A program made the position numbers and the translations under genes. The notes beneath the pieces are model-generated. The model did no database searches. It worked only from the letters and a program-made list of their open reading frames with translations, and was not told the origin of the DNA. A stretch of DNA of 40,682 nt from Ignavibacteria bacterium RIFCSPLOWO2_12_FULL_56_21. Its GTDB lineage: Bacteria; Bacteroidota; Ignavibacteria; UBA10030. Shown piece after piece: positions 17,156 to 26,571 of this stretch. The stretch is taken from assembly GCA_001802945.1 (NCBI GenBank), contig MHAK01000132.1, positions 1-40,682 on the forward strand. Direction: 5' to 3'. How positions within the stretch are numbered: position 1 is the first letter of the stretch; each line of letters opens with the position of its first letter.

Positions 17156-17648
17156 CGCATAGCGCATGGCGCAAAGCGAGAAAGACCAACAGTGGAAAAG
17201 AGTTTCATGGAAATAGGGATCTCTGAAAGTTTGTGATCATGCGGCCCAAATGGTCCAAGTCTTCAAGCAGAACATCTCTGGTGACCTCGTCCAAGAGTTC
17301 CCTGCGATGAAGAATGATCGTCATATTTGCGGACTCGAACACGGACTCTCGTGATATGCCGAGATATCAAGAAAATGCGCGGTTGGATGTAGCACCTGAC
17401 CCTTCAGCAATGTTGTTTGTCATGCTCATGCCGGCACCACGCATTTGGTCTGCAAAGCGAAAGAGCTTTCTCTTCTCAAGCGTATCTGCTATATCAAAGA
17501 GACGATCTGCGATATCGGCTGCGAATTTCCATATCTCGAAGTCCTGAAACCTGAATCTCGCTGACATATCCCCCCGCAACTATTGTGTCTGATTTGAATC
17601 GCAATCTAAAGCAAATTGCTTCTTCTGTTTAGCTCTTTACGCTATGCG
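17156..17648. repeat. Inverted 7-bp-unit repeats enclosing the broken four-helix-bundle gene
   Basis: CGCATAGCG at 17156-17164 is matched by its exact inverse at 17640-17648. Both arms continue inward as degenerate 7-bp units (CGCATAG, CGCATGG, CGCAAAG on the left; CGCATAG, CGTAAAG on the right, read inverted). They bracket the pseudogene at 17205-17567. Confidence 0.65.
17205..17567 (-). pseudogene. Four-helix-bundle (S23/IVS) gene with an in-frame TGA
   Basis: The minus strand encodes a typical four-helix-bundle protein: FQDFEIWKFAADIAD, then FADQMRGAGMSMTNNIAEGSG. At 17367-17369 a TGA interrupts it after NRAFS. The same frame then continues with family-like sequence (YLGISRESVFESAN, DEVTRDVLLEDLDHLGRMI) to a stop at 17205. 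Total length with the TGA read through would be about 120 residues, normal for the family. One C-to-T change in a CGA codon explains the damage, so inactivation looks recent. A run of six G residues stands directly before the ATG; a TTG four codons upstream is an alternative start. A sequencing error is a possible explanation. Confidence 0.75.
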
Positions 17649-17658
17649 GTTTGCCCCT

Positions 17659-18414
17659 TCACCCCACCATCACTCCTCCGCCATTCACACTCAAGGTAGA
17701 TCCCACCAAATGTATTGAAAACTCGGAGGCCAGGAACAGTACTGCTCCAGCGATATCCTCCGCCGTTGCTGCGCGCCCGTTCGGGATCGTTTTCAGAATG
17801 GCGCGCGATCTTGAAGTGCGGAGTGAGCTCGCGGACATGTCCGTATCGACCCAGCCCGGCGCCACACAATTCGCGAGTATGCCGAACGGAGCAAGTTCAA
17901 CGCCGATTGATTTCGTGAATGCAAACATCGCACCTTTCGATGCGGCATAGTGCGAATGGAATGCTTCGCCCCGCTGTCCGGCCGTGCTGGCGATGTTGAT
18001 GATCCGACCCCATCTTTTCTTCTTCATGATCGGCACCACTTCGTTCGTGAAGAGGAACGTGCCCTTCAGGTTCACGTCGAGCGTCTCGTCCCACTGTTGC
18101 TCCGTCATTTTTCCGATTGCTCCGTACTTCCATATCCCGGCATTGTTTACCAAGATGTCGATCCGGCCGAAGCGCTTCAGTGTTTGCTTGACAGCACTTC
18201 GGACGTCGCTCATCTTTGCGGCATTGGCTTTGAGAGTGAGGCAGTCCGGCCCGAATGAACGGACCTCGCTCGCGACCCTTTCTGCCGCTCCTTTATTAGA
18301 TGCATAGGTCAGTGCAATGTCCGCTCCGACCCGCGCAAGGAGCTCCGCCGTTGCCGCTCCAATTCCCCTCGATCCACCTGTGATAAGCGCTACTTTTCCC
18401 GTCAAATCCATCAT
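17659..18414 (-). CDS. Short-chain dehydrogenase/reductase (FabG-like)
   Basis: A 251-residue cytoplasmic NAD(P)-dependent oxidoreductase of the classical SDR family. The Rossmann motif GGSRGIG is at 13-19, the NNAG motif at 90-93 and the catalytic residues at Ser143, Tyr156 and Lys160 (YAASK), with PGWVDTDM after the active site and the C-terminal SVNGGGVMVG. It resembles 3-oxoacyl-ACP reductases, but no fatty-acid genes are nearby, so the substrate is unknown. AAGGAG 8 nt upstream supports the ATG at 18414. It is transcribed divergently from feoA across a 242-bp spacer and is isolated from the neighbouring copper block by the repeat-flanked pseudogene. Confidence 0.88.
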   Translation of the reverse strand: MMDLTGKVALITGGSRGIGAATAELLARVGADIALTYASNKGAAERVASEVRSFGPDCLTLKANAAKMSDVRSAVKQTLKRFGRIDILVNNAGIWKYGAIGKMTEQQWDETLDVNLKGTFLFTNEVVPIMKKKRWGRIINIASTAGQRGEAFHSHYAASKGAMFAFTKSIGVELAPFGILANCVAPGWVDTDMSASSLRTSRSRAILKTIPNGRAATAEDIAGAVLFLASEFSIHLVGSTLSVNGGGVMVG

Positions 18415-18571: not shown

Positions 18572-18600
18572 TTGACACAGAATCTTAATACGACTAATTT
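18572..18600 (+). promoter_or_regulatory. Promoter of the feo genes
   Basis: TTGACA (18572-18577) and TAATTT (18595-18600) are separated by exactly 17 bp. Transcription would start near 18607, giving a leader of about 50 nt before feoA. Confidence 0.7.
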
Positions 18601-18607
18601 AGTCCTA
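18589..18607. promoter_or_regulatory. Palindromic operator overlapping the feo promoter
   Basis: TACGACTAATTTAGTCCTA is a 19-bp interrupted palindrome centred on 18598. Its core GACTAA-T-TTAGTC (18592-18604) is perfectly symmetric and covers the -10 element and the probable start point. Length, symmetry and TTAG half-site resemble DtxR/IdeR/MntR-type metalloregulator boxes, which repress iron uptake when metal is bound. The cognate repressor is not in the window. Confidence 0.6.
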
Positions 18608-18656
18608 CTTAATCTACGACTCAATTGGTCTTATTATTTGGAAACGATTCCCGATT

Positions 18657-18905
18657 ATGCAAAACGCTGAAGTAATACCGCTTCACAAGGTTCGCAAGGG
18701 CCGACGAGTTCTCGTCGTCCGAGTGCCCGAAGGCAAGACCAGAGCACAATTGATCCGACTTGGCATTCTGAAGGGAGAATTCCTCAAATGCCTCCAACGG
18801 CTCCCGGGCGGAACGATGCTCGTGGAAAAGAACCGCCAGGAAATCGCTATTGGCGCGAGCTTGGCCGGCGCCATCCTTGTCACAGATGCAACGGAAGTCC
18901 TTTGA
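18657..18905 (+). CDS. feoA: FeoA-like ferrous iron transport protein A
   Basis: An 82-residue cytoplasmic SH3-like protein of the FeoA family. It shows the expected pattern: PLHKVRKGRRVLVVRVPEGK, the RLGILKGEFLKCLQRLPGG core and a final beta strand with AIGASLAGAILV. FeoA is thought to support or regulate FeoB-mediated Fe2+ import. It begins the operon at an ATG preceded only by a weak purine tract (GGAAAC) and ends 2 bp before the feoB ATG, so translation is probably coupled. Confidence 0.88.
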   Translation: MQNAEVIPLHKVRKGRRVLVVRVPEGKTRAQLIRLGILKGEFLKCLQRLPGGTMLVEKNRQEIAIGASLAGAILVTDATEVL

Positions 18906-18907
18906 AT

Positions 18908-20809
18908 ATGAGTGAACGACCGCTGACCGGACAGTATCACAGCTCCCCCCACAACCACATTGAAAAGCACCGGCACATTGGTGTGGGAATCGGGGAGGAG
19001 GATGTCGACCGCATCAAGGTTGTCCTCGTCGGCAACCCTAATGTCGGAAAATCCATCTTCTTTAACCACATGTCCGGGCTGTATGTCGACGTGTCGAACT
19101 ATCCCGGCACGACCGTCGAAGTTTCCCGCGGCCGCTTCAACACATTCGACGTTTTCGACACACCCGGCGTTTATGGTATCTCCTCCTTCACCGATGAGGA
19201 GTCAGTCACGCGAGATTGCGTGCTTGAGGCCGACGTTGTGCTCAACATCGTCGATTCCGTCCATTTGGAACGCGACCTGTTTCTCACCCAGCAATTGATC
19301 GACATGGGAAAGAAGACCGCCGTCCTCCTCAACTTCTCCGATGAACTCGAAAAGCAGGGGATTGATGTCGATGCAAAGCTCCTTGCGTCGTATCTCGGTG
19401 TTCCCGTCTTCAACACAACGGCCGTAACCAAGAAAGGGTTCGAGCACATTGAGCAGGCGATTGCGGAGGCCCGGAAGGGGGAGCAGGACCTGACGATCCA
19501 CCGTCGGCTGCACACGATGCTTTCGCGGACCGGATCCGAAGCTGAAGCGTTGTTGATCCTTGAGGGGGACGAGGTCATAGCCCAGCGGCACGGAATTGCA
19601 CCCGGGGAAGACCGGGAGGTCATGTATATCGAGCGCCGCAATCGCGTCAACATTATTATCAATGCGGTCCTCTCCGAGAGGAATCGACGGAAACGTATCG
19701 GCTCGACGTTTGGACGCTGGGCGGTCAATCCGTGGACGGGCGTCCCGATTCTCGCTGTCGTCCTGTACTTCGTCTATCTCTTCGTGGGCGTGCTTATCGC
19801 TCAGGATCTCGTAGGGTTTACCGAAGAAACCCTCGGTCATGGAATTTGGGAGCCGTGGATACAGGGCGTCGTTTCGAACTTCCTCGCGCCGCAATCATGG
19901 TTGTGGACGATCCTGGTGGGCGAGTTCGGCGCGCTCAGCATGACCGTCACCTACCTGCTGTTCCTGCTCCTCCCACTGGTGGTCGCATTCTACCTCGCGT
20001 TGGCGCTGATGGAAGACAGCGGCTATTTACCCCGTCTCGCGACCATGGTCGACCGGAGTCTTAATGCCATTGGACTGAATGGCAGGGCCGTGATTCCACT
20101 TATCCTCGGCTTCGGATGTGTTACGATGGCAACCATCACGACGCGGCTTCTGGAATCGGAGCGGGAAAAGCGGATCGCCACCTCTATTCTGCAGTTCGCC
20201 ATTCCCTGTTCTGCACAGATCGCGGTTGTGGCGGCACTGCTCACCGGCGCCGGTTTTCAGGCCATGGTCATCTACACGGCCACGATCTTCACGGTTTTTG
20301 TCGTGATCGGTACGATCCTGCACAGGGCGCTCCCGGGAGAAACTCCCGCACTTCTCATTGACCTTCCTCCTATGCGGATACCCCGGATCGACAACATCGT
20401 CCGCAAGACCGCTTTCCGGGCGTATCACTTCATGAAGGAAGCGACTCCCTGGTTCTTCGTCGGAGCGCTCGTCGTCGGGATCATGCAGGTGACGGGACTC
20501 CTCACAGTCTGGCAGAACATTCTTGCCCCATTCACCACCGGTTGGCTTCAACTTCCGCGTGAGGCGGCAACCGCGTTCGTTATGGGACTCGTCCGCCGGG
20601 ATTTTGGTGCTGCAGGACTCTACGAGCTGCCGCTGACGCCTGATCAAATCGTGGTCGCGCTCGTCACGATCACGCTGTTCGTTCCCTGTATCGCTTCATT
20701 GATGGTCATGATGAAGGAACGCGGGTCGAAAGAGGCCATGCTCATTTGGTTCGGAACGTGGGTGGGGGCGTTTTTCGTCGGCGGACTTCTGTCGCAACTT
20801 CTTATCTGA
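18908..20809 (+). CDS. feoB: Ferrous iron transporter FeoB
   Basis: A 633-residue inner-membrane Fe2+ transporter with a cytoplasmic G domain. G1 is GNPNVGKS at 42-49, the G2 region is NYPGTTVEVSRG, G3 is DTPG at 84-87 and G4 is NFSD (NxxD). A helical GDI-like region follows. The membrane part contains two gate-type segments (LGFGCVTMAT and FVPCIASLMVMMKE), whose cysteines are the expected metal-pathway positions. It is shorter than the E. coli protein (773 residues) because it lacks the C-terminal extension. The first 24 residues contain five histidines (positions 11, 15, 17, 21, 23), an unusual leader. The ATG at 18908 is 2 bp after the feoA stop, and the next gene starts 2 bp after its stop. 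Confidence 0.95.
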   Translation: MSERPLTGQYHSSPHNHIEKHRHIGVGIGEEDVDRIKVVLVGNPNVGKSIFFNHMSGLYVDVSNYPGTTVEVSRGRFNTFDVFDTPGVYGISSFTDEESVTRDCVLEADVVLNIVDSVHLERDLFLTQQLIDMGKKTAVLLNFSDELEKQGIDVDAKLLASYLGVPVFNTTAVTKKGFEHIEQAIAEARKGEQDLTIHRRLHTMLSRTGSEAEALLILEGDEVIAQRHGIAPGEDREVMYIERRNRVNIIINAVLSERNRRKRIGSTFGRWAVNPWTGVPILAVVLYFVYLFVGVLIAQDLVGFTEETLGHGIWEPWIQGVVSNFLAPQSWLWTILVGEFGALSMTVTYLLFLLLPLVVAFYLALALMEDSGYLPRLATMVDRSLNAIGLNGRAVIPLILGFGCVTMATITTRLLESEREKRIATSILQFAIPCSAQIAVVAALLTGAGFQAMVIYTATIFTVFVVIGTILHRALPGETPALLIDLPPMRIPRIDNIVRKTAFRAYHFMKEATPWFFVGALVVGIMQVTGLLTVWQNILAPFTTGWLQLPREAATAFVMGLVRRDFGAAGLYELPLTPDQIVVALVTITLFVPCIASLMVMMKERGSKEAMLIWFGTWVGAFFVGGLLSQLLI

Positions 20810-20811
20810 CC

Positions 20812-21057
20812 ATGAGTTCAGGGGCTTCCGCAGGGGTCAAAGGAGTAGGTGTCACGCTGGAGGTGCAGCTCCGGTCGGAGTACCGCGTCTGTCCACAGTG
20901 CCATTATGAGCTTACGAATCCCTTCGCAGAACGCTGTCCCCGCTGTCTTACGATCGTGCCGGTGAACGACCCGGGATGCAGCAAATGCGTGCATAGTTCT
21001 GGGTGTCCCGCGTCGAGCGTGAAAAAGCAGGAGCAAGAAAAAAGATTTAAGAATTAA
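20812..21057 (+). CDS. Small cysteine-rich zinc-ribbon protein in the feo operon
   Basis: An 81-residue protein starting 2 bp after feoB, so almost certainly co-translated. Seven cysteines are arranged as CPQC, CPRC and CSKC plus one more five residues on. The first two pairs look like a zinc ribbon; the last group could bind a second metal or an Fe-S cluster. The C-terminus is lysine-rich. Its place is that of the variable third feo gene (feoC in enterobacteria), but no sequence likeness to the winged-helix FeoC is seen. A role as an iron-responsive accessory factor for FeoB is inference. Confidence 0.7.
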   Translation: MSSGASAGVKGVGVTLEVQLRSEYRVCPQCHYELTNPFAERCPRCLTIVPVNDPGCSKCVHSSGCPASSVKKQEQEKRFKN

Positions 21058-21142
21058 GGAGAGAGAGGCGGGCGAAGAAGCACTGCCGCTGTAAAGCTGC
21101 TGCGTTTACTCTAGAAGCCCAGTGCGCCAATACTCAAATAGC

Positions 21143-21190
21143 AAAAAAAGTGCACCATCCGTCCTTCGAGAAAAGTAGCGGATGATGCAC
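21143..21190 (-). terminator. Intrinsic terminator on the minus strand
   Basis: A 12-bp stem with one mismatch (21150-21161 against 21179-21190) and a 17-nt loop is followed on the minus strand immediately by seven T residues (21143-21149). On the plus strand no T-run follows, so the element is directional. Confidence 0.7.
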
Positions 21191-21225
21191 ATTCAAATCC
21201 GGGAACGTCCAGGGGACGCACCCGT
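21143..21225 (-). ncRNA. Candidate minus-strand small RNA between feo genes and porin
   Basis: A promoter (21231-21259) and an intrinsic terminator (21143-21190) on the minus strand define a transcript of about 82 nt with no open reading frame of note. The predicted RNA has a 5' hairpin, in which CGTCC-CCT-GGACG is flanked by GGAA and TTCC, and the 3' terminator hairpin. Flanking protein genes are all on the plus strand, so this would be antisense to the feo-porin read-through transcript. Existence is predicted only from signals. Confidence 0.45.
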
Positions 21226-21230
21226 TCCGC

Positions 21231-21259
21231 AAGATACGGATGCGGTGCGGGTATGTCAA
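21231..21259 (-). promoter_or_regulatory. Minus-strand promoter facing the feo operon
   Basis: TTGACA (21254-21259, minus strand), 17-bp spacer, TATCTT (21231-21236). The -35 box is perfect and the spacing matches the other promoters in this window. Confidence 0.55.
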
Positions 21260-21307
21260 GGTGCGGACGGCCGGGGGTTTCCCACATCACATCACAGGAG
21301 TTTTGCC

Positions 21308-22612
21308 GTGAAATCGTTCCACCGCTTTTTCCTCGTGCTTGCTCTGTCGTCGTTGTCCTCGGTATCGTTAATAGCCCAAACCAGTCCTGATTCCCTCGCG
21401 GAAATCCATCGTCAGATCGATATTCTCACCAAAGAAATAGAAGGCCTGAAGCTTGGCGCCGTCGATGCTCCCGTCTACGAATCGAAGACCGGACTCGGCA
21501 TAGCCGCATCAAAAGTCTATTCGCTGAAGAAGTCGGGAGTCTCTCTCGCCGGTTACGGCGAGATCGTCTACGAAAATTACGGAACGACCCGAGATAACGG
21601 CAGTGCTACGACGACACTGGACAAGATCGACGCGCTGCGGAACATCATCTATGTCGGCTACCGATTCAACGACTGGGTGCTTTTTAATTCCGAGGTAGAG
21701 TTCGAGCATGCCAACACGGCCAAGGGAGGCGAAGCGTCGGTCGAATTCGCCTACATCGACCTGCTCCTGTCTCGGTCGCTGAACATCCGGGCCGGCATGG
21801 TACTCGTTCCGGTCGGCATCATCAACGAGAAGCACGAGCCGCCGACGTTCTACGGAACCCTCCGCCCCAATGTAGAACGCTTGATCATTCCCAGCACATG
21901 GCGAACGAATGGCGCCGGCGTGCATGGCGAGGTTGTGCCGGGTCTGAACTACCGTGCCTACGTCATCGAAGGTCTGCGCATGGCATCCTACACTGCCGGC
22001 GACGGTATCCGTGGCGGAAGGCAGAGCGGCGCAAGTGCCGTGGCCGAGGATCTTGCGGTGACCGGACGCGTTGATTACGCAGGAGTGAACGGAGCGACGT
22101 TCGGCGCAAGTTTCTATGCCGGCAACTCCGGGCAGGGGGCCAAAGACTCAATCGGTAAGGGGATCAACGCCATGACGGCAGTAGCAGCGGTCCACGGTGA
22201 ATACGCCTGGAGGGGGCTGGAAGTGCGCGGCCTGTTTGCGCAGACGACGGTGGATGAAGCAGACCGAGTCGGCGGATACATTCAATGGACAACGAAGAGC
22301 GCGTCGGCGCCGGTAATCGGCTCGACGATGAACGGCTGGTATCTGTCAGCAGGATATGACGTGATGCCCTACCTCATGCCCGGATCATCCCATGTTGTGG
22401 CGCCATATGTCCTCTATGAAAAGTATAACACCCAGGCGGACGTCATAACGGGCAGGAATGCCAGCCCGGCAAATGATCGATCCACATTCGTGGTCGGTCT
22501 GACATGGAAACCACACGCGAATGTTGCTTTCAAGGCCGATTACCGGGACAACAAGAACGGGGCTGGGACGGGGACGGATCAGTGGAATGTGGCGGTGACA
22601 TATCTTTATTGA
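21308..22612 (+). CDS. Outer-membrane porin-like beta-barrel protein
   Basis: A 434-residue exported protein: signal peptide (residues 1 to about 22, ending SLIAQ), a short coiled-coil (SLAEIHRQIDILTKEIEGLKL), then a barrel rich in alternating hydrophobic strands and ending in aromatic-aliphatic residues (VAVTYLY), as outer-membrane proteins do. The segment LNIRAGMVLVPVGIINEKHE plus TFYGTLRPNVERLIIPSTWR is typical of OprO/OprP-like porins. The coiled coil plus barrel also recalls siderophore porins of the LbtU type. The GTG at 21308 has AGGAG 7 nt upstream. It follows the feo genes by 250 bp on the same strand, with no obvious promoter of its own. A role in passage of iron or an electron-shuttle compound is inference. 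Confidence 0.75.
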   Translation: MKSFHRFFLVLALSSLSSVSLIAQTSPDSLAEIHRQIDILTKEIEGLKLGAVDAPVYESKTGLGIAASKVYSLKKSGVSLAGYGEIVYENYGTTRDNGSATTTLDKIDALRNIIYVGYRFNDWVLFNSEVEFEHANTAKGGEASVEFAYIDLLLSRSLNIRAGMVLVPVGIINEKHEPPTFYGTLRPNVERLIIPSTWRTNGAGVHGEVVPGLNYRAYVIEGLRMASYTAGDGIRGGRQSGASAVAEDLAVTGRVDYAGVNGATFGASFYAGNSGQGAKDSIGKGINAMTAVAAVHGEYAWRGLEVRGLFAQTTVDEADRVGGYIQWTTKSASAPVIGSTMNGWYLSAGYDVMPYLMPGSSHVVAPYVLYEKYNTQADVITGRNASPANDRSTFVVGLTWKPHANVAFKADYRDNKNGAGTGTDQWNVAVTYLY

Positions 22613-22787
22613 TGAGGCCATAGTGATTTTGGATTGTGGATTGTCGACCTGCCCGCCGAACGAATGTCAGTGAGGCAGGCGGGTTGCGGATTGGGAAGGG
22701 CAAAGTTACAGAGGGAATGGCGGATTGGAGAGGGGGAGCTTAGGAGATTTCGGATTGTCAATTGTCAATTGCGGATTGGGTAGGGCT
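22613..22787. repeat. Low-complexity GGATTG-type repeat tract
   Basis: GGATTG or GCGGATTGG recurs at least seven times between the porin stop and the FMN-binding gene. An inverted CCTGCCCGCC / GGCAGGCGGG pair (about 22649-22682) lies within it. No gene is seen, and the tract resembles decayed tandem units found elsewhere in the window. Confidence 0.6.
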
Positions 22788-23336
22788 TTGCTAAAGAGCA
22801 CAAAGTTGGCGGCCGCGGCAACGGTGTTGTTCGCAGTCGCTGACACATGTACGGCTCAGGTGAAAATGACGAAAGAAGAAGCGCTCGAGACGTACTTTCC
22901 GGCTGCGCAGATTGAGCGGGCAACGGCATTCCTGACCGACGATCAGGTGCACGAGATCCAACAGAGGTCCAGATCAAGAGTGGAATCGCATGTGCTCACG
23001 TACTACATGGCGCGGAAAGACGGTCGCTTCGTAGGAACGGCCTTCTTTGAGACGCAGACGGTGAGGACAATGCCAGCAACGTACATGGTGATCGTTGATC
23101 CTGATACGACGATCCGAGCCGTAGAGGTCATGGCGTTCTTTGAGCCGGAGGATTATCTGCCGCAGTCGAAATGGCTTGGACAGTTTGCGGCCAAAGGACC
23201 TGCGGACGATCTGTGGCTGAAGCGGGGCATCCAGAACATCAGCGGGGCCTCGCTCACGGCGCAGGCGCTCACGGAAGGCGTACGTCGTTTGCTCGCTTCG
23301 TATCAGATTGTCGTGGCGCCGAAGGTGAGATCGTGA
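22788..23336 (+). CDS. Exported FMN-binding domain protein
   Basis: A 182-residue protein with a signal peptide (LAAAATVLFAVADTCTAQ) and an FMN_bind domain like those of RnfG, NqrC and NosR, which carry covalently bound FMN outside the cytoplasm. The flavinylation site is seen in ISGASLTAQALTEGV (151-165): Ser155 occupies the place usually held by the acceptor threonine of the S/T-G-A-T motif. The start is uncertain: TTG at 22788 with GGGTAGGG just before it gives a proper signal peptide, and no ATG fits. The stop overlaps the next gene's GTG by 3 bp. ApbE, which attaches FMN to such proteins, is encoded two genes downstream. Confidence 0.8.
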   Translation: MLKSTKLAAAATVLFAVADTCTAQVKMTKEEALETYFPAAQIERATAFLTDDQVHEIQQRSRSRVESHVLTYYMARKDGRFVGTAFFETQTVRTMPATYMVIVDPDTTIRAVEVMAFFEPEDYLPQSKWLGQFAAKGPADDLWLKRGIQNISGASLTAQALTEGVRRLLASYQIVVAPKVRS

Positions 23337-23890
23337 AATACATGACCAACGGCGGTTACGAGAATCAGCCCTTGATGCGGCTCACGCTCGGGTTGACGCT
23401 GCTCTTTCTTGTCCTGTTCACGGCAACGAATTTTGAGATGTATTTTTCCCGGATGTCGCTCGACCCGTCATCTGTTGTGACATACTACAACGGGTCTGAA
23501 GAAGAATTTCGTCCGGCCCGGTCGTATCAATCCATGCTCGAAGTCGCCCACAGTCACACGGCCATGATGGCGCTCGTGTTGTTGATGCTCACGCATCTGC
23601 TGATCTTCGCTCCGTTCTCGCGGCCTGCCAAGGTCGCGTTCATCACTTCCGCCTTTGTCTCCGGGATCGTGGATGAAGGGGCCGGATGGCTTGTCCGCTT
23701 TGTCGACCCCTCGTTTGCGTTCCTTAAAGTCGCCGGCTTCGTCGGACTTCAGGCGAGTCTGCTGTTCCTCCTGGGCAATCTGGCGATCTTCCTGCTCAAA
23801 GCACGTGCACGGGAAAAGCAGTTGAGCCGGTTCACGCTGGGGGAAGAGACGGTGGAGGACGTGGAAGAAGAAGAAGAGCAGATGCCGTAG
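23333..23890 (+). CDS. Four-helix inner-membrane protein coupled to the FMN-binding protein
   Basis: A 185-residue polytopic protein with hydrophobic segments at about residues 17-38, 76-95, 100-122 and 128-155, and a strongly acidic C-terminus (EEEEEQMP). His73, His75 and His88 lie in or beside the second helix (HSHTAMMALVLLMLTHLLIF), a spacing compatible with heme or quinone-site ligands, although no known cytochrome family is recognised. The GTG at 23333 overlaps the preceding stop (GTGA) and follows AAGGTGAG, showing translational coupling. An ATG three codons on is an alternative. Its partnership suggests a membrane electron-entry or anchoring subunit for the FMN-binding protein. Confidence 0.65.
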   Translation: MKYMTNGGYENQPLMRLTLGLTLLFLVLFTATNFEMYFSRMSLDPSSVVTYYNGSEEEFRPARSYQSMLEVAHSHTAMMALVLLMLTHLLIFAPFSRPAKVAFITSAFVSGIVDEGAGWLVRFVDPSFAFLKVAGFVGLQASLLFLLGNLAIFLLKARAREKQLSRFTLGEETVEDVEEEEEQMP

Positions 23891-23898
23891 TGAAAGAG

Positions 23899-23925
23899 TG
23901 AATCATGAATATCGAACACGGAACG
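23899..23925 (+). repeat. 27-bp downstream repeat, copy 1
   Basis: The 27 bp from TGAATCATG to GAACACGGAACG match 38046-38072 at 24 positions. Both copies lie at or just after a stop codon. The GAACACGGAAC core also resembles the arms around 2408-2941. Confidence 0.7.
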
Positions 23926-24031
23926 TCCAATGGTGAAGTGCGATCGAATGATCTCTACTCTATAATCTGCACGTATGGAACAGATGAAGTCAAGATTCCT
24001 GCTTCGTACCGTAGACTCATGTTGGCATCAA

Positions 24032-24100
24032 CGACCCCGTAGGGGTCGCACGTTTGTAGACTTTCGTACGACATGCTTTTCCAGAACTCCGTAGGAGTTC
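24032..24100 (+). repeat. Double-palindrome REP-like element before apbE
   Basis: Two perfect 7-bp hairpins with GTA loops, CGACCCC-GTA-GGGGTCG (24032-24048) and GAACTCC-GTA-GGAGTTC (24084-24100), are joined by a spacer containing CGTTTGTAGAC. Both share the CC-GTA-GG core, the layout of dispersed repeats seen in Bacteroidota-type genomes. The second hairpin contains the apbE ribosome-binding site. Confidence 0.85.
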
Positions 24101-24106
24101 AACTTC

Positions 24107-25135
24107 GTGCAAAGCCGAAGAGATTTTATCAAGTCCATATCGCGCGGATCGGCCGGAATTCTGGTCGGAGCAATTGCACCGGCAATGACCCGATCCGGGA
24201 TCCGCACGGAAGCGGCCTATCTCGAGCGCTGCGTCTTCGCAATGGGAACGACGGTGACGATCAGCGCACACGGCGAGAGCCGCGAGCATATTCTGCATGC
24301 GACGTCGTTGGCATTCGACGAGCTCTACAGAATGGACAAGCTACTCAGCGTTTTTCGTGCGGACAGCGACATCTCGCGGCTCAATGGTTCTGCGGGACGA
24401 TACGAGGTGACAATTGATAGCGCAACTGCGCAGGTATTGAGCGAGTCGTCTCGGTTTCACGACATGACGCGAGGTGCGTTCGACATTACAATAGAATCTC
24501 TGATGGAGGCGTGGGGGTTTCGGAACGAGGCCGAGTCCATGCAGGTGGTTTCAGCCGCAGAATTGAAAATGGCCAGGGCCGGAGTAGGCATGCGACATTT
24601 GCAGGTTTTGTCCGGCGGCAGGGCATTTCTCGAAAATGAACATGTAGGCGTGGACCTCGGGGGCATCGCGGTCGGCTTTACCGTCGACCGGATGGGAGCA
24701 ATTCTGCGCCGCGAGGGTGTTTCCTCCGCGCTCATCAATCACAGCGGTGACCTGCTGGCGATTGGGGCACCGCCGGATAGCGACGGATGGCCGGTAGTGG
24801 TGCCGCATCCTTGGAACGTGGCTGAGACTCTAGCCACGTTCATGCTGCGAGACCGCGCGGCCTCCACTTCGACGAACACTCGGACGATTCGAACAGTCGG
24901 CGGAATGCGCGTCGGACACATCCTTAATCCCACAACTGGAGAAAACCCGGAAGGCATCGAAAGTGTCACCGTGCTCGCTCCGAACAGCATCGACGCGGAT
25001 GCTCTCTCCACCGGATTGTTTGTCCGATTCAATAAAAGGGGTGAATGGAGAAATGACGCGCGGGAAGCGATCGTTCTGAGGACAGGCGGAGAAGTGGAGC
25101 GCATCGGCGGGAATCGACACAATGAAGGAATATGA
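24107..25135 (+). CDS. apbE: FAD:protein FMN transferase ApbE
   Basis: A 342-residue exported enzyme that transfers FMN from FAD onto a Ser/Thr of extracytoplasmic flavoproteins. The N-terminus has a twin-arginine signal (SRRDFIK, residues 3-9), suggesting Tat export. Conserved elements follow: AMGTTVTISAHG, FDITIESLMEAWGF, VDLGGIAVGFTVDRM, GDLLAIGAPP, HILNPTTGENP and ADALSTGLFV, the last two being the magnesium and FAD-binding region. Length is typical. Translation starts at a GTG, with GGAG 9 nt upstream lying inside a perfect hairpin. The likely substrate is the FMN-binding protein encoded at 22788-23336. Confidence 0.93.
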   Translation: MQSRRDFIKSISRGSAGILVGAIAPAMTRSGIRTEAAYLERCVFAMGTTVTISAHGESREHILHATSLAFDELYRMDKLLSVFRADSDISRLNGSAGRYEVTIDSATAQVLSESSRFHDMTRGAFDITIESLMEAWGFRNEAESMQVVSAAELKMARAGVGMRHLQVLSGGRAFLENEHVGVDLGGIAVGFTVDRMGAILRREGVSSALINHSGDLLAIGAPPDSDGWPVVVPHPWNVAETLATFMLRDRAASTSTNTRTIRTVGGMRVGHILNPTTGENPEGIESVTVLAPNSIDADALSTGLFVRFNKRGEWRNDAREAIVLRTGGEVERIGGNRHNEGI

Positions 25136-25185
25136 GACCGTACAATCAGAGCACCAAGAACTACTGGCAAATCAAAGGACAGACC

Positions 25186-25773
25186 ATGATACCCTGGAGA
25201 ACGCAGTTGTCCGTCGTTGCAGTCCTGACAATATTGGCACATGGGGCCCTGCCTTCTCAAACCCAAGAAACTCCTCCAGCCGGCCGAGAAAGCCGTGTGA
25301 CGCTGCTGCTCGTCGGTCATGGAGGCCCTGCGACGGATTTTCCAACGTTGACCGAATATTTCAGACTGCACGGCAGAAACAGCGATGAATCGCGAGCCAT
25401 CGAAAACGAAATGATGCACTGGCCCCGCAATGAACGCAACGACTCTTACTGGGCGGGGTTCATGAAGATCGTTCGTGAACTGGAACGCTCCGGCGGATTT
25501 CACTCCGTGCGATATGCGTTCAACGAAATGTGTGCTCCGACCGTCGAAGAGGCGCTCGAGGTGTCAAAGGGCGACCGTCCCGACACGATTGTCGTCACCA
25601 GCATCATGATGACTTCGGGAGGAGTGCATTCCGAAAAAGACATTCCGCTCTCCATCCAAAACTTTCGTGACCAAAATCCCGAAATACCGGTTATTTACGC
25701 ATGGCCCTATGCAGAAGCAGATATCGTGAAGTTCCTCAACGGACACATAGGGCGGTTCACCTCGACAAACTAA
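25186..25773 (+). CDS. Exported CbiX-like chelatase-fold protein
   Basis: A 195-residue protein with a signal peptide (about 1-25, PWRTQLSVVAVLTILAHGALPSQ) and one chelatase domain related to CbiX/SirB (sirohydrochlorin ferro- or cobaltochelatase). The two metal-site histidines have clear counterparts: His45 in LLLVGHGGPA and His148 in TSGGVHSEKDIP. Normal CbiX is cytoplasmic. A periplasmic chelatase (CbiK-P) is known in Desulfovibrio, where an iron or heme role is proposed. The ATG at 25186 is preferred because AAAGGA lies 7 nt upstream. The gene follows apbE by 50 bp. A periplasmic Fe2+ or tetrapyrrole-handling role is inference. Confidence 0.72.
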   Translation: MIPWRTQLSVVAVLTILAHGALPSQTQETPPAGRESRVTLLLVGHGGPATDFPTLTEYFRLHGRNSDESRAIENEMMHWPRNERNDSYWAGFMKIVRELERSGGFHSVRYAFNEMCAPTVEEALEVSKGDRPDTIVVTSIMMTSGGVHSEKDIPLSIQNFRDQNPEIPVIYAWPYAEADIVKFLNGHIGRFTSTN

Positions 25774-25780
25774 GGCGACC

Positions 25781-25809
25781 TTGCGCCTCCCCGGGGGGTC
25801 GTGTACATT
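25781..25809 (+). promoter_or_regulatory. Promoter of the SufT-like gene
   Basis: TTGCGC (25781-25786) and TACATT (25804-25809) are spaced by 17 bp, and the spacer holds a CCCCGGGG palindrome. Transcription would start about 35 nt before the ATG at 25851. Confidence 0.45.
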
Positions 25810-25850
25810 GAAGCAGGCCAGGAAAACACGTTCCACTCTCTTTCGCGTCC

Positions 25851-26180
25851 ATGGACATACAACAGATTCATCCGCAATTGACTGAACAGGTCGTGCTGAC
25901 CGCGCTCCGCGAAGTCTACGACCCCGAAATTCCCGTCAATGTCGTCGACCTGGGATTGATCTATCAGGTGAAGATCATCGACGACTGGGTGGGGATCAAA
26001 ATGACGCTTACGAGCCCGGGCTGCGGACTCGCCGATCAGATCGCGAACCAGGTAAGGGAGAAAGTGATGCAAGTGCCGGGAGTTGTGGATGGAGATGTGA
26101 GAATTGTTTGGCAACCGGCGTGGAATCAAAGCATGATGAGTGAGGAAGCGAAGAAGAAATTGATTTTCAATGGCCGGTAA
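25851..26180 (+). CDS. DUF59/MIP18-family Fe-S cluster assembly factor (SufT-like)
   Basis: A 109-residue cytoplasmic protein of the MIP18/SufT/PaaD family, involved in maturation of Fe-S proteins. Signatures are REVYDPEIPVNVVDLGLIY (about 20-38), LTSPGCG with the conserved cysteine (about 58-64), and the C-terminal QPAWNQSMMSEEAKKKL. It is shorter than full SufT and close to the stand-alone metal-sulfur cluster factor. It lies just after the iron/flavin genes with its own promoter, and a role in using imported iron fits its position. Confidence 0.88.
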   Translation: MDIQQIHPQLTEQVVLTALREVYDPEIPVNVVDLGLIYQVKIIDDWVGIKMTLTSPGCGLADQIANQVREKVMQVPGVVDGDVRIVWQPAWNQSMMSEEAKKKLIFNGR

Positions 26181-26194
26181 GTTTTAGAGAAATG

Positions 26195-26571
26195 GCAGGA
26201 TTGCAGAATAGCAGGATGGCAGAATCATTTACACTGAGGAGGGGGTATGAGATTCAAGAGGTTCGAGGACATGCCTGTATGGCGTGCAGCCCGAAAGCTC
26301 GCATCAAACATCGCTGAGGGGTATGAAAGAGAAACAACGTCAGATTTCTTGCGCTTCTTATCTTACGCCAAAGAATCGGCAGGCGAATTACGATCTCAAC
26401 TCTACGTCGCTTTCGACATCGGCTATATCAAAGAAGAAGACTTTCGGGACTTTTCGAGAAGTTGCATTTCCATCTCGATCCAATTGACCCGCTTCATGCA
26501 GTACTTGGAAGTGTCACAGCCCTGATCCAAGATTATGCAATTCTGCAATTCTGCAATTTTGTAATACTGCT
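26195..26571. repeat. Inverted 8-bp tandem arrays enclosing a four-helix-bundle gene
   Basis: Left array: four 8-bp units GCAGGATT, GCAGAATA, GCAGGATG, GCAGAATC (26195-26226). Right array: five 8-bp units ATTATGCA, ATTCTGCA, ATTCTGCA, ATTTTGTA, ATACTGCT (26532-26571). Right units are the reverse complement of the left unit (consensus GCAGAATN). The gene at 26247-26525 fills the space between. Confidence 0.8.
26247..26525 (+). CDS. Four-helix-bundle (S23/IVS) protein with internal deletion
   Basis: A 92-residue member of the four-helix-bundle family, recognisable from FEDMPVW at the start, SNIAEGYERETTSDFLRFLSYAKESAGELRSQL in the middle and a final helix ending FMQYLEV. Relatives are about 115-120 residues. 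Here WRAARKLA runs directly into SNIAEGY, so roughly 30 residues (end of helix 1, loop, start of helix 2) are missing in frame. The fold may therefore be compromised. The start is preceded by the strong GAGGAGGGGGT. The gene sits between inverted tandem arrays, as do its two paralogues. Confidence 0.78.
   Translation: MRFKRFEDMPVWRAARKLASNIAEGYERETTSDFLRFLSYAKESAGELRSQLYVAFDIGYIKEEDFRDFSRSCISISIQLTRFMQYLEVSQP

Follow-up and report, generated by a model that had tools for sequence, protein, structure and literature searches.

The window analysed here, a 40,682-nt stretch of DNA from Ignavibacteria bacterium RIFCSPLOWO2_12_FULL_56_21 (contig MHAK01000132.1), carries at positions 18572-26180 nine genes, all on the + strand, which run from feoA to a sufT-like gene in the order given by an initial annotation. 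Judging from gene content, conserved neighbourhoods and promoter sites, this is probably an iron-controlled Feo operon with a modular envelope ferric reductase built into it. The unit of the pathway is a trio consisting of an outer-membrane porin, an exported flavin mononucleotide (FMN)-binding protein and a four-transmembrane (4-TM) protein with no Pfam match (here mem), often followed by the flavin transferase ApbE. The initial annotation had joined Feo and the FMN proteins into one pathway, a proposal that has to be narrowed to the trio rather than the Feo operon, as in most relatives the trio occurs without feo, and in many members of the window's family feo occurs without the trio.

Conservation, iron partners and operators of the trio

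Nearly all fetched relatives with enough flanking sequence preserve the order porin-FMN-mem, and the trio is therefore more than a chance association. With mem as query, matches turned up in 10 of 32 genomes from the window's own family and in 44 of the 395 Bacteroidota genomes sampled, the weakest few of these matches being doubtful. The 44 fetched loci contain the FMN gene in 40 cases, the porin (cluster 2) in 39, ApbE in 24 and FeoB in 9; the order of the trio holds in 39-40 of them. A scan of named genome contigs yielded 40 further loci (several being contigs already among the earlier ones), nearly all with porin-FMN-mem where the contig allows, from Melioribacteraceae/Ignavibacteriales, Calditrichota, Neomarinimicrobiota, Fodinibius and Rhodothermales. 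In the family of locus L065, called Flavobacteriaceae-type here from our reading of gene content, 43 of 120 genera carry mem. ApbE was encoded elsewhere in all 24 tested trio genomes that had been chosen for having no adjacent copy. No viral contigs carrying the system were found. A divergent mem subfamily occurs with an FMN protein in a different gene order in L071 and L082, near an EB_dh-type protein (L071) and a small CxxC-containing protein.

The genes beside the trio repeatedly belong to iron uptake. Within the window's family, the trio-less genomes L128, L134 and L135 have feoA-feoB followed by cysR (a small Cys-rich protein gene) and/or sufT, and trio-carrying genomes have the trio inserted between cysR and sufT, which indicates a cassette that has been gained or lost. 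In L140, of the same family, FTR1-FtrD takes the place of FeoB beside the same short-chain dehydrogenase/reductase (SDR) gene and with the same operator kept, followed by the porin and FMN genes, where the contig stops. Elsewhere the trio is preceded by fur-feoAB (L025, L107), fur-FTR1 (L026), fur (L069) or a gene for an FbpA-type Fe3+-binding protein (L063, L068, L074/L119, L120). For the latter, the NCBIfam result was ambiguous and the identity was settled by a match to PDB sequences, the L063 protein matching Thermus FbpA (3wae) at 5e-91, with L068, L074 and L120 assigned by clustering. That the partners (FeoAB, FTR1, FbpA and fur) are mutually unrelated is the best argument for the module serving iron and, together with operators of iron/Fe-S type, makes an iron role of the trio well supported, in keeping with the earlier proposal of FMN protein, mem, porin and ApbE as an iron-tied unit. 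Most relatives have the trio with no iron gene nearby, and many family members have feo without the trio. In L024, L108, L120 and related loci, the trio adjoins heme-biosynthesis genes or protoporphyrinogen oxidase.

The feature starts with a TTGACA -35 box (18572-18577, + strand) of the feo promoter, followed by the palindromic operator GACTAATTTAGTC (18592-18604), which fits the core GACTRWWWYAGTC of the IscR type-1 consensus as quoted in PMC6599224. All 15 family promoters in the alignment share TTGAC, a stretch resembling TAATAG and a palindrome like GACTAAATTAGTC, and the distances between these elements, including that from TTGAC to the operator, are constant among them. The operator at the feo promoter is the sole exact match in the window's genome, and in all seven family genomes with matches one of them lies at the feo promoter; in L140, a near-identical operator stands ahead of FTR1. 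The one Rrf2 gene found in the window's genome lies upstream of a suf cluster. We also considered, and rejected, that the window promoter contains a Fur box: a 17/19 match occurs in L140 only, and the other family promoters score at shuffle level.

Upstream of stand-alone trios, the IscR-type site is not enriched, and stand-alone trios of other groups lack it. Often ahead of these trios is a 17-bp palindrome, TTTAGAhTnAdTCTAAA, which matches at 15 or more of 17 positions in 21 of 22 Flavobacteriaceae-type trio promoters (about 0.1 expected from dinucleotide shuffles) and in 26 of 45 other trio promoters (about 0.4 expected), some of the data counted having also served to refine the consensus. 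Across five Flavobacteriaceae-type genomes, the palindrome-like pattern occurs 42 times, as against 8 for a reversed-pattern control. Besides those of the trio, sites inspected in such genomes include ones ahead of feoA, sufS, a SUF-associated sufT-like gene, mrp/apbC, sdhC and nqrA, though several more fall within genes or ahead of unrelated ones. Its position directly upstream of fur in L025, L026 and L107 points to a Fur-family operator, for which we take it as a candidate. Upstream of the porin, many Flavobacteriaceae-type loci (e.g., L065, L070, L072, L189) have a pair of palindromic boxes separated by about 70 bp. Operators are thus common to trio or feo and to iron/Fe-S genes, which places the trio in a putative Fur/IscR-type regulon. 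The initial annotation had named separation of the feo and FMN/ApbE halves combined with a lack of iron co-regulation as what would tell against it; the halves are indeed separated in most relatives, but iron-type operators remain.

Proteins of the trio and the proposed electron route

The porin (~21308-22612, + strand) has a signal peptide but no Pfam match of its own; a 36%-identical homologue in L025 matches Porin_O_P at 5e-8. The FMN protein (22788-23336, + strand) is an exported FMN_bind member that scores just over the cut-off (PF04205, 23.8 bits against 22), with a signal peptide recognised by eye, and its family profile matches RnfG structures at 5e-11, RnfG being the nearest. Its candidate flavinylation site, QNISGAS, retains GA[S/T] from the motif D-x-x-[S/T]-G-A-[S/T], GA[S/T] being invariant in the 76 family members checked, and has Gln in place of the Asp, itself present in 20 of the 76. 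In a model protein, replacing the Asp by Ala had only a minor effect (PMC12052999). With Gln for Asp and Ser at the attachment site, flavinylation of the window protein by ApbE is likely, not certain. The ApbE-type FAD:protein FMN transferase (24107-25135, + strand; PF02424, 217 bits, 4e-64) is the only ApbE found in its genome and has a twin-arginine translocation (TAT)-like signal with the N-terminus SRRDFIK.

The gene for mem (23333-23890, + strand) begins with a GTG that overlaps the stop of the FMN gene by 4 nt, so that the two are probably translationally coupled. Its product, without a Pfam or NCBIfam match, is confidently predicted as a four-helix membrane bundle (AF2 pLDDT 89). The only residues fully invariant across 35 sequences are G51, H70, H72 and W116, with R119 close to invariant; the two histidines, numbered from the Met at 23342, form an HxH motif where TM2 is predicted to reach the periplasm. 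If the positive loops are taken as cytoplasmic, the His pair and the Arg lie on the periplasmic side, a placement that would suit a quinol, docking or metal site without proving any one of them. Searches for a known family returned little: at E 0.1 the window protein had no Pfam match, its relatives at E 5 gave only two chance-level matches to unrelated families, fold searches (Foldseek, VIA-align) gave generic four-helix bundles with no known fold standing out, and a profile search of the PDB gave nothing relevant. The gap between mem and apbE (23891-24106) holds short hairpin repeats, CCCCGTAGGGG and CTCCGTAGGAG, which are absent in relatives with overlapping genes.

From the gene content, the conserved trio, the importer swaps and the operators, all read directly in the sequences, we infer the flavinylation, the quinol donor, Fe(III) as acceptor, the direction of flow and the cargo of the porin as follows. 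Fe(III) would enter the periplasm through the dedicated, putatively OprO/P-like porin; the 4-TM HxH protein would draw electrons from the membrane quinone pool and pass them to the periplasmic FMN protein, flavinylated by ApbE; and the latter would reduce Fe(III) to Fe(II) for import by FeoB, which needs Fe(II). In relatives, the same reductase may feed FTR1, work beside FbpA or act alone within the iron/Fe-S regulon. This flow from quinol through mem and FMN to Fe(III) is the simplest reading that fits FeoB, FTR1 and FbpA together, and ferric reduction for ferrous import appears the likeliest mechanism of the trio. Since the trio is found repeatedly, either next to iron-uptake genes of different kinds or by itself downstream of an iron-type site, it probably represents an undescribed iron-reduction route for uptake. 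We lean, somewhat more cautiously than for the window itself, towards a Bacteroidota-wide, iron-regulated envelope ferric reductase with a 4-TM HxH carrier of a new class, a single-FMN protein, its own porin and interchangeable importers (FeoB, FTR1 or FbpA-linked).

Several observations weigh against a ferric reductase. No iron importer lies near most trio loci; the palindrome regulon includes sdh and nqr, so membership is no proof of uptake; and the promoter counts are inflated by the kinship of the sequences. The motif QNISGAS has no Asp where one is usual and carries Ser as the FMN-attachment residue, and in mem neither a heme nor a quinone site could be assigned, cytochrome homology having been looked for and none found. 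FTR1 and FbpA, moreover, handle Fe(III), which makes an oxidase direction possible.

The main rival, which we consider unlikely overall, is an iron-sparing redox module in which the trio passes electrons to another envelope acceptor (thiols, or a respiratory or heme-maturation step), and in which, under iron shortage, the flavin carrier takes over from heme or Fe-S carriers, explaining its place in an iron/Fe-S regulon. The presence of sdhC and nqrA in the same regulon, the many trios unlinked to importers and the protoporphyrinogen oxidase or heme-synthesis genes adjoining some loci fit such a module; however, it leaves the dedicated porin hard to account for, and directly upstream of the trio, genuine iron importers and proteins that bind Fe(III) repeatedly replace one another. 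Electrons might also run in reverse, the FMN protein taking them from Fe(II) to the quinone pool and Fe(III) passing to FTR1 or FbpA. FTR1-FtrD and FbpA as partners suit this direction, but it seems quite improbable given that the window's partner is FeoB and that NCBIfam names the EfeU/Ftr1 family a ferrous iron transporter subunit.

That porin and electron carrier are nearly always together, and that L071 and L082 have the neighbours noted above, would agree with a conduit sending electrons to outside acceptors for respiration, an explanation to which we give slightly less credence still: the porin is putatively OprO/P-like, the carrier is one small single-FMN protein with no multiheme or multi-flavin wire, and the operators are of iron/Fe-S type. 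Least probable is a housekeeping FMN unit lying beside Feo by coincidence. Feo and the trio are separable within the window's family, but this idea is already disfavoured by the independent iron partners, by an operator that the FeoB and FTR1 versions have in common and by iron-regulon operators on unlinked trio copies.

Remaining genes of the operon and its flanks

FeoA (18657-18905; PF04023, 1.1e-11) is followed by a single-chain "type A" FeoB (~18908-20809; PF02421, 3e-49; TIGR00437, 364 bits) with G-protein, Gate and FeoB_C domains, both on the + strand like all genes of the operon; FeoB copies more than 58% identical, full or partial, occur in most of the 32 family genomes. The cysR gene (20812-21057), which encodes a small zinc-ribbon-like protein (DZR, sub-threshold at 2.5e-5), adjoins FeoB in several relatives. 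Downstream of apbE lie an exported CbiX/chelatase-fold protein with a signal peptide (~25186-25773; PF01903, 1e-12) and a SufT/MIP18-like Fe-S assembly factor (FeS_assembly_P; 25851-26180; PF01883, 7e-22). In many relatives the SufT-like gene adjoins the Feo/trio locus, whether the trio is present or not. The chelatase-fold protein turned up in only one other family locus (L008); it is poorly conserved and counts as accessory, not as part of the core, and its suggested role in handling the ion is left unsupported. A simple scan of the + strand gave only two weak terminator-like sites, with no excess over shuffles.

Ahead of the operon is a divergent SDR oxidoreductase gene (17659-18414); most family members, as well as L025 and L026, have it beside their Feo or FTR1 locus. 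Small open reading frames resembling S23-type four-helix-bundle proteins, recognised by eye, lie one on each side (17367-17579 and 26247-26525). A second locus of the same genome (L142, contig C40) has a split FeoB beside two DtxR/FeoA-type regulators, a di-haem DHOR protein, a TAT-exported Rieske protein and a distant porin (28% similar to the window's), making up a parallel set of Feo, porin and envelope redox proteins with carriers different from the window's.

Relation to known systems

The means by which bacteria generate extracytoplasmic Fe2+ for FeoB and FTR1 are not well established. If true, the proposed route would offer a candidate reductase and a new transmembrane electron-transfer family, in a module present in about one-tenth of the sampled Bacteroidota genomes and in about one-third of Flavobacteriaceae-type genera, where its operator is common with feoA and Fe-S genes.

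The initial annotation had regarded the combination as undescribed, which holds in part. Flavinylation has already been linked to ferrous transport in the literature, in combination with other membrane proteins. Meheust et al. 2021 (PMC8238504) described flavinylation-based assimilatory iron reductases, in which MsrQ-, PepSY-, DsbD- and Nqr/Rnf-like clusters occur with VIT1, and flavinylation clusters with five membrane-partner classes (NapH, MsrQ, PepSY, DsbD and Nqr/Rnf-like) and the ferrous transporters VIT1 and P19/FTR1. As in the window, these bring together an FMN-bind protein, ApbE, a membrane electron-transfer protein and a ferrous transporter, with Fe(III) reduction proposed. Unlike the VIT1 clusters, the trio loci have a separate Pfam-less membrane family (mem matches none of the Pfam models of those five classes), a dedicated porin and FeoB, FTR1 or FbpA as partners. 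The P19/FTR1 systems likewise pair FTR1 with an FMN-binding protein, but they are mostly Gram-positive and contain P19, whereas trio loci have the porin and 4-TM protein, and no P19 gene was recognised by eye in those fetched. The main texts of PMC8238504 and PMC11334425 make no mention of FeoB or porins, and we found no paper joining FMN-binding, FeoB and ApbE. An iron-limitation-induced "Porin" gene is on record in Riemerella (PMC5429918), although a tie to the trio could not be made.

The DUF4405/FezC membrane cytochromes (Huang et al. 2024, PMC11334425) resemble mem in being small His-bearing membrane proteins linked to flavinylation or iron. However, DUF4405 has four central histidines and mem only two invariant ones, both on one helix, with no sequence or Pfam match between them and only generic helical bundles in the fold search. 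RnfG/NqrC share homology and an SGAT-type motif with the FMN protein, but the trio locus has no Rnf/Nqr core and a separate electron entry. Compared with FeoABC systems, FeoA and FeoB of the window are ordinary members, and the extra element of the operon is the envelope redox cassette. Thus, the mem family, the dedicated porin, the FeoB and FbpA partners and the operator appear to be what is new here.

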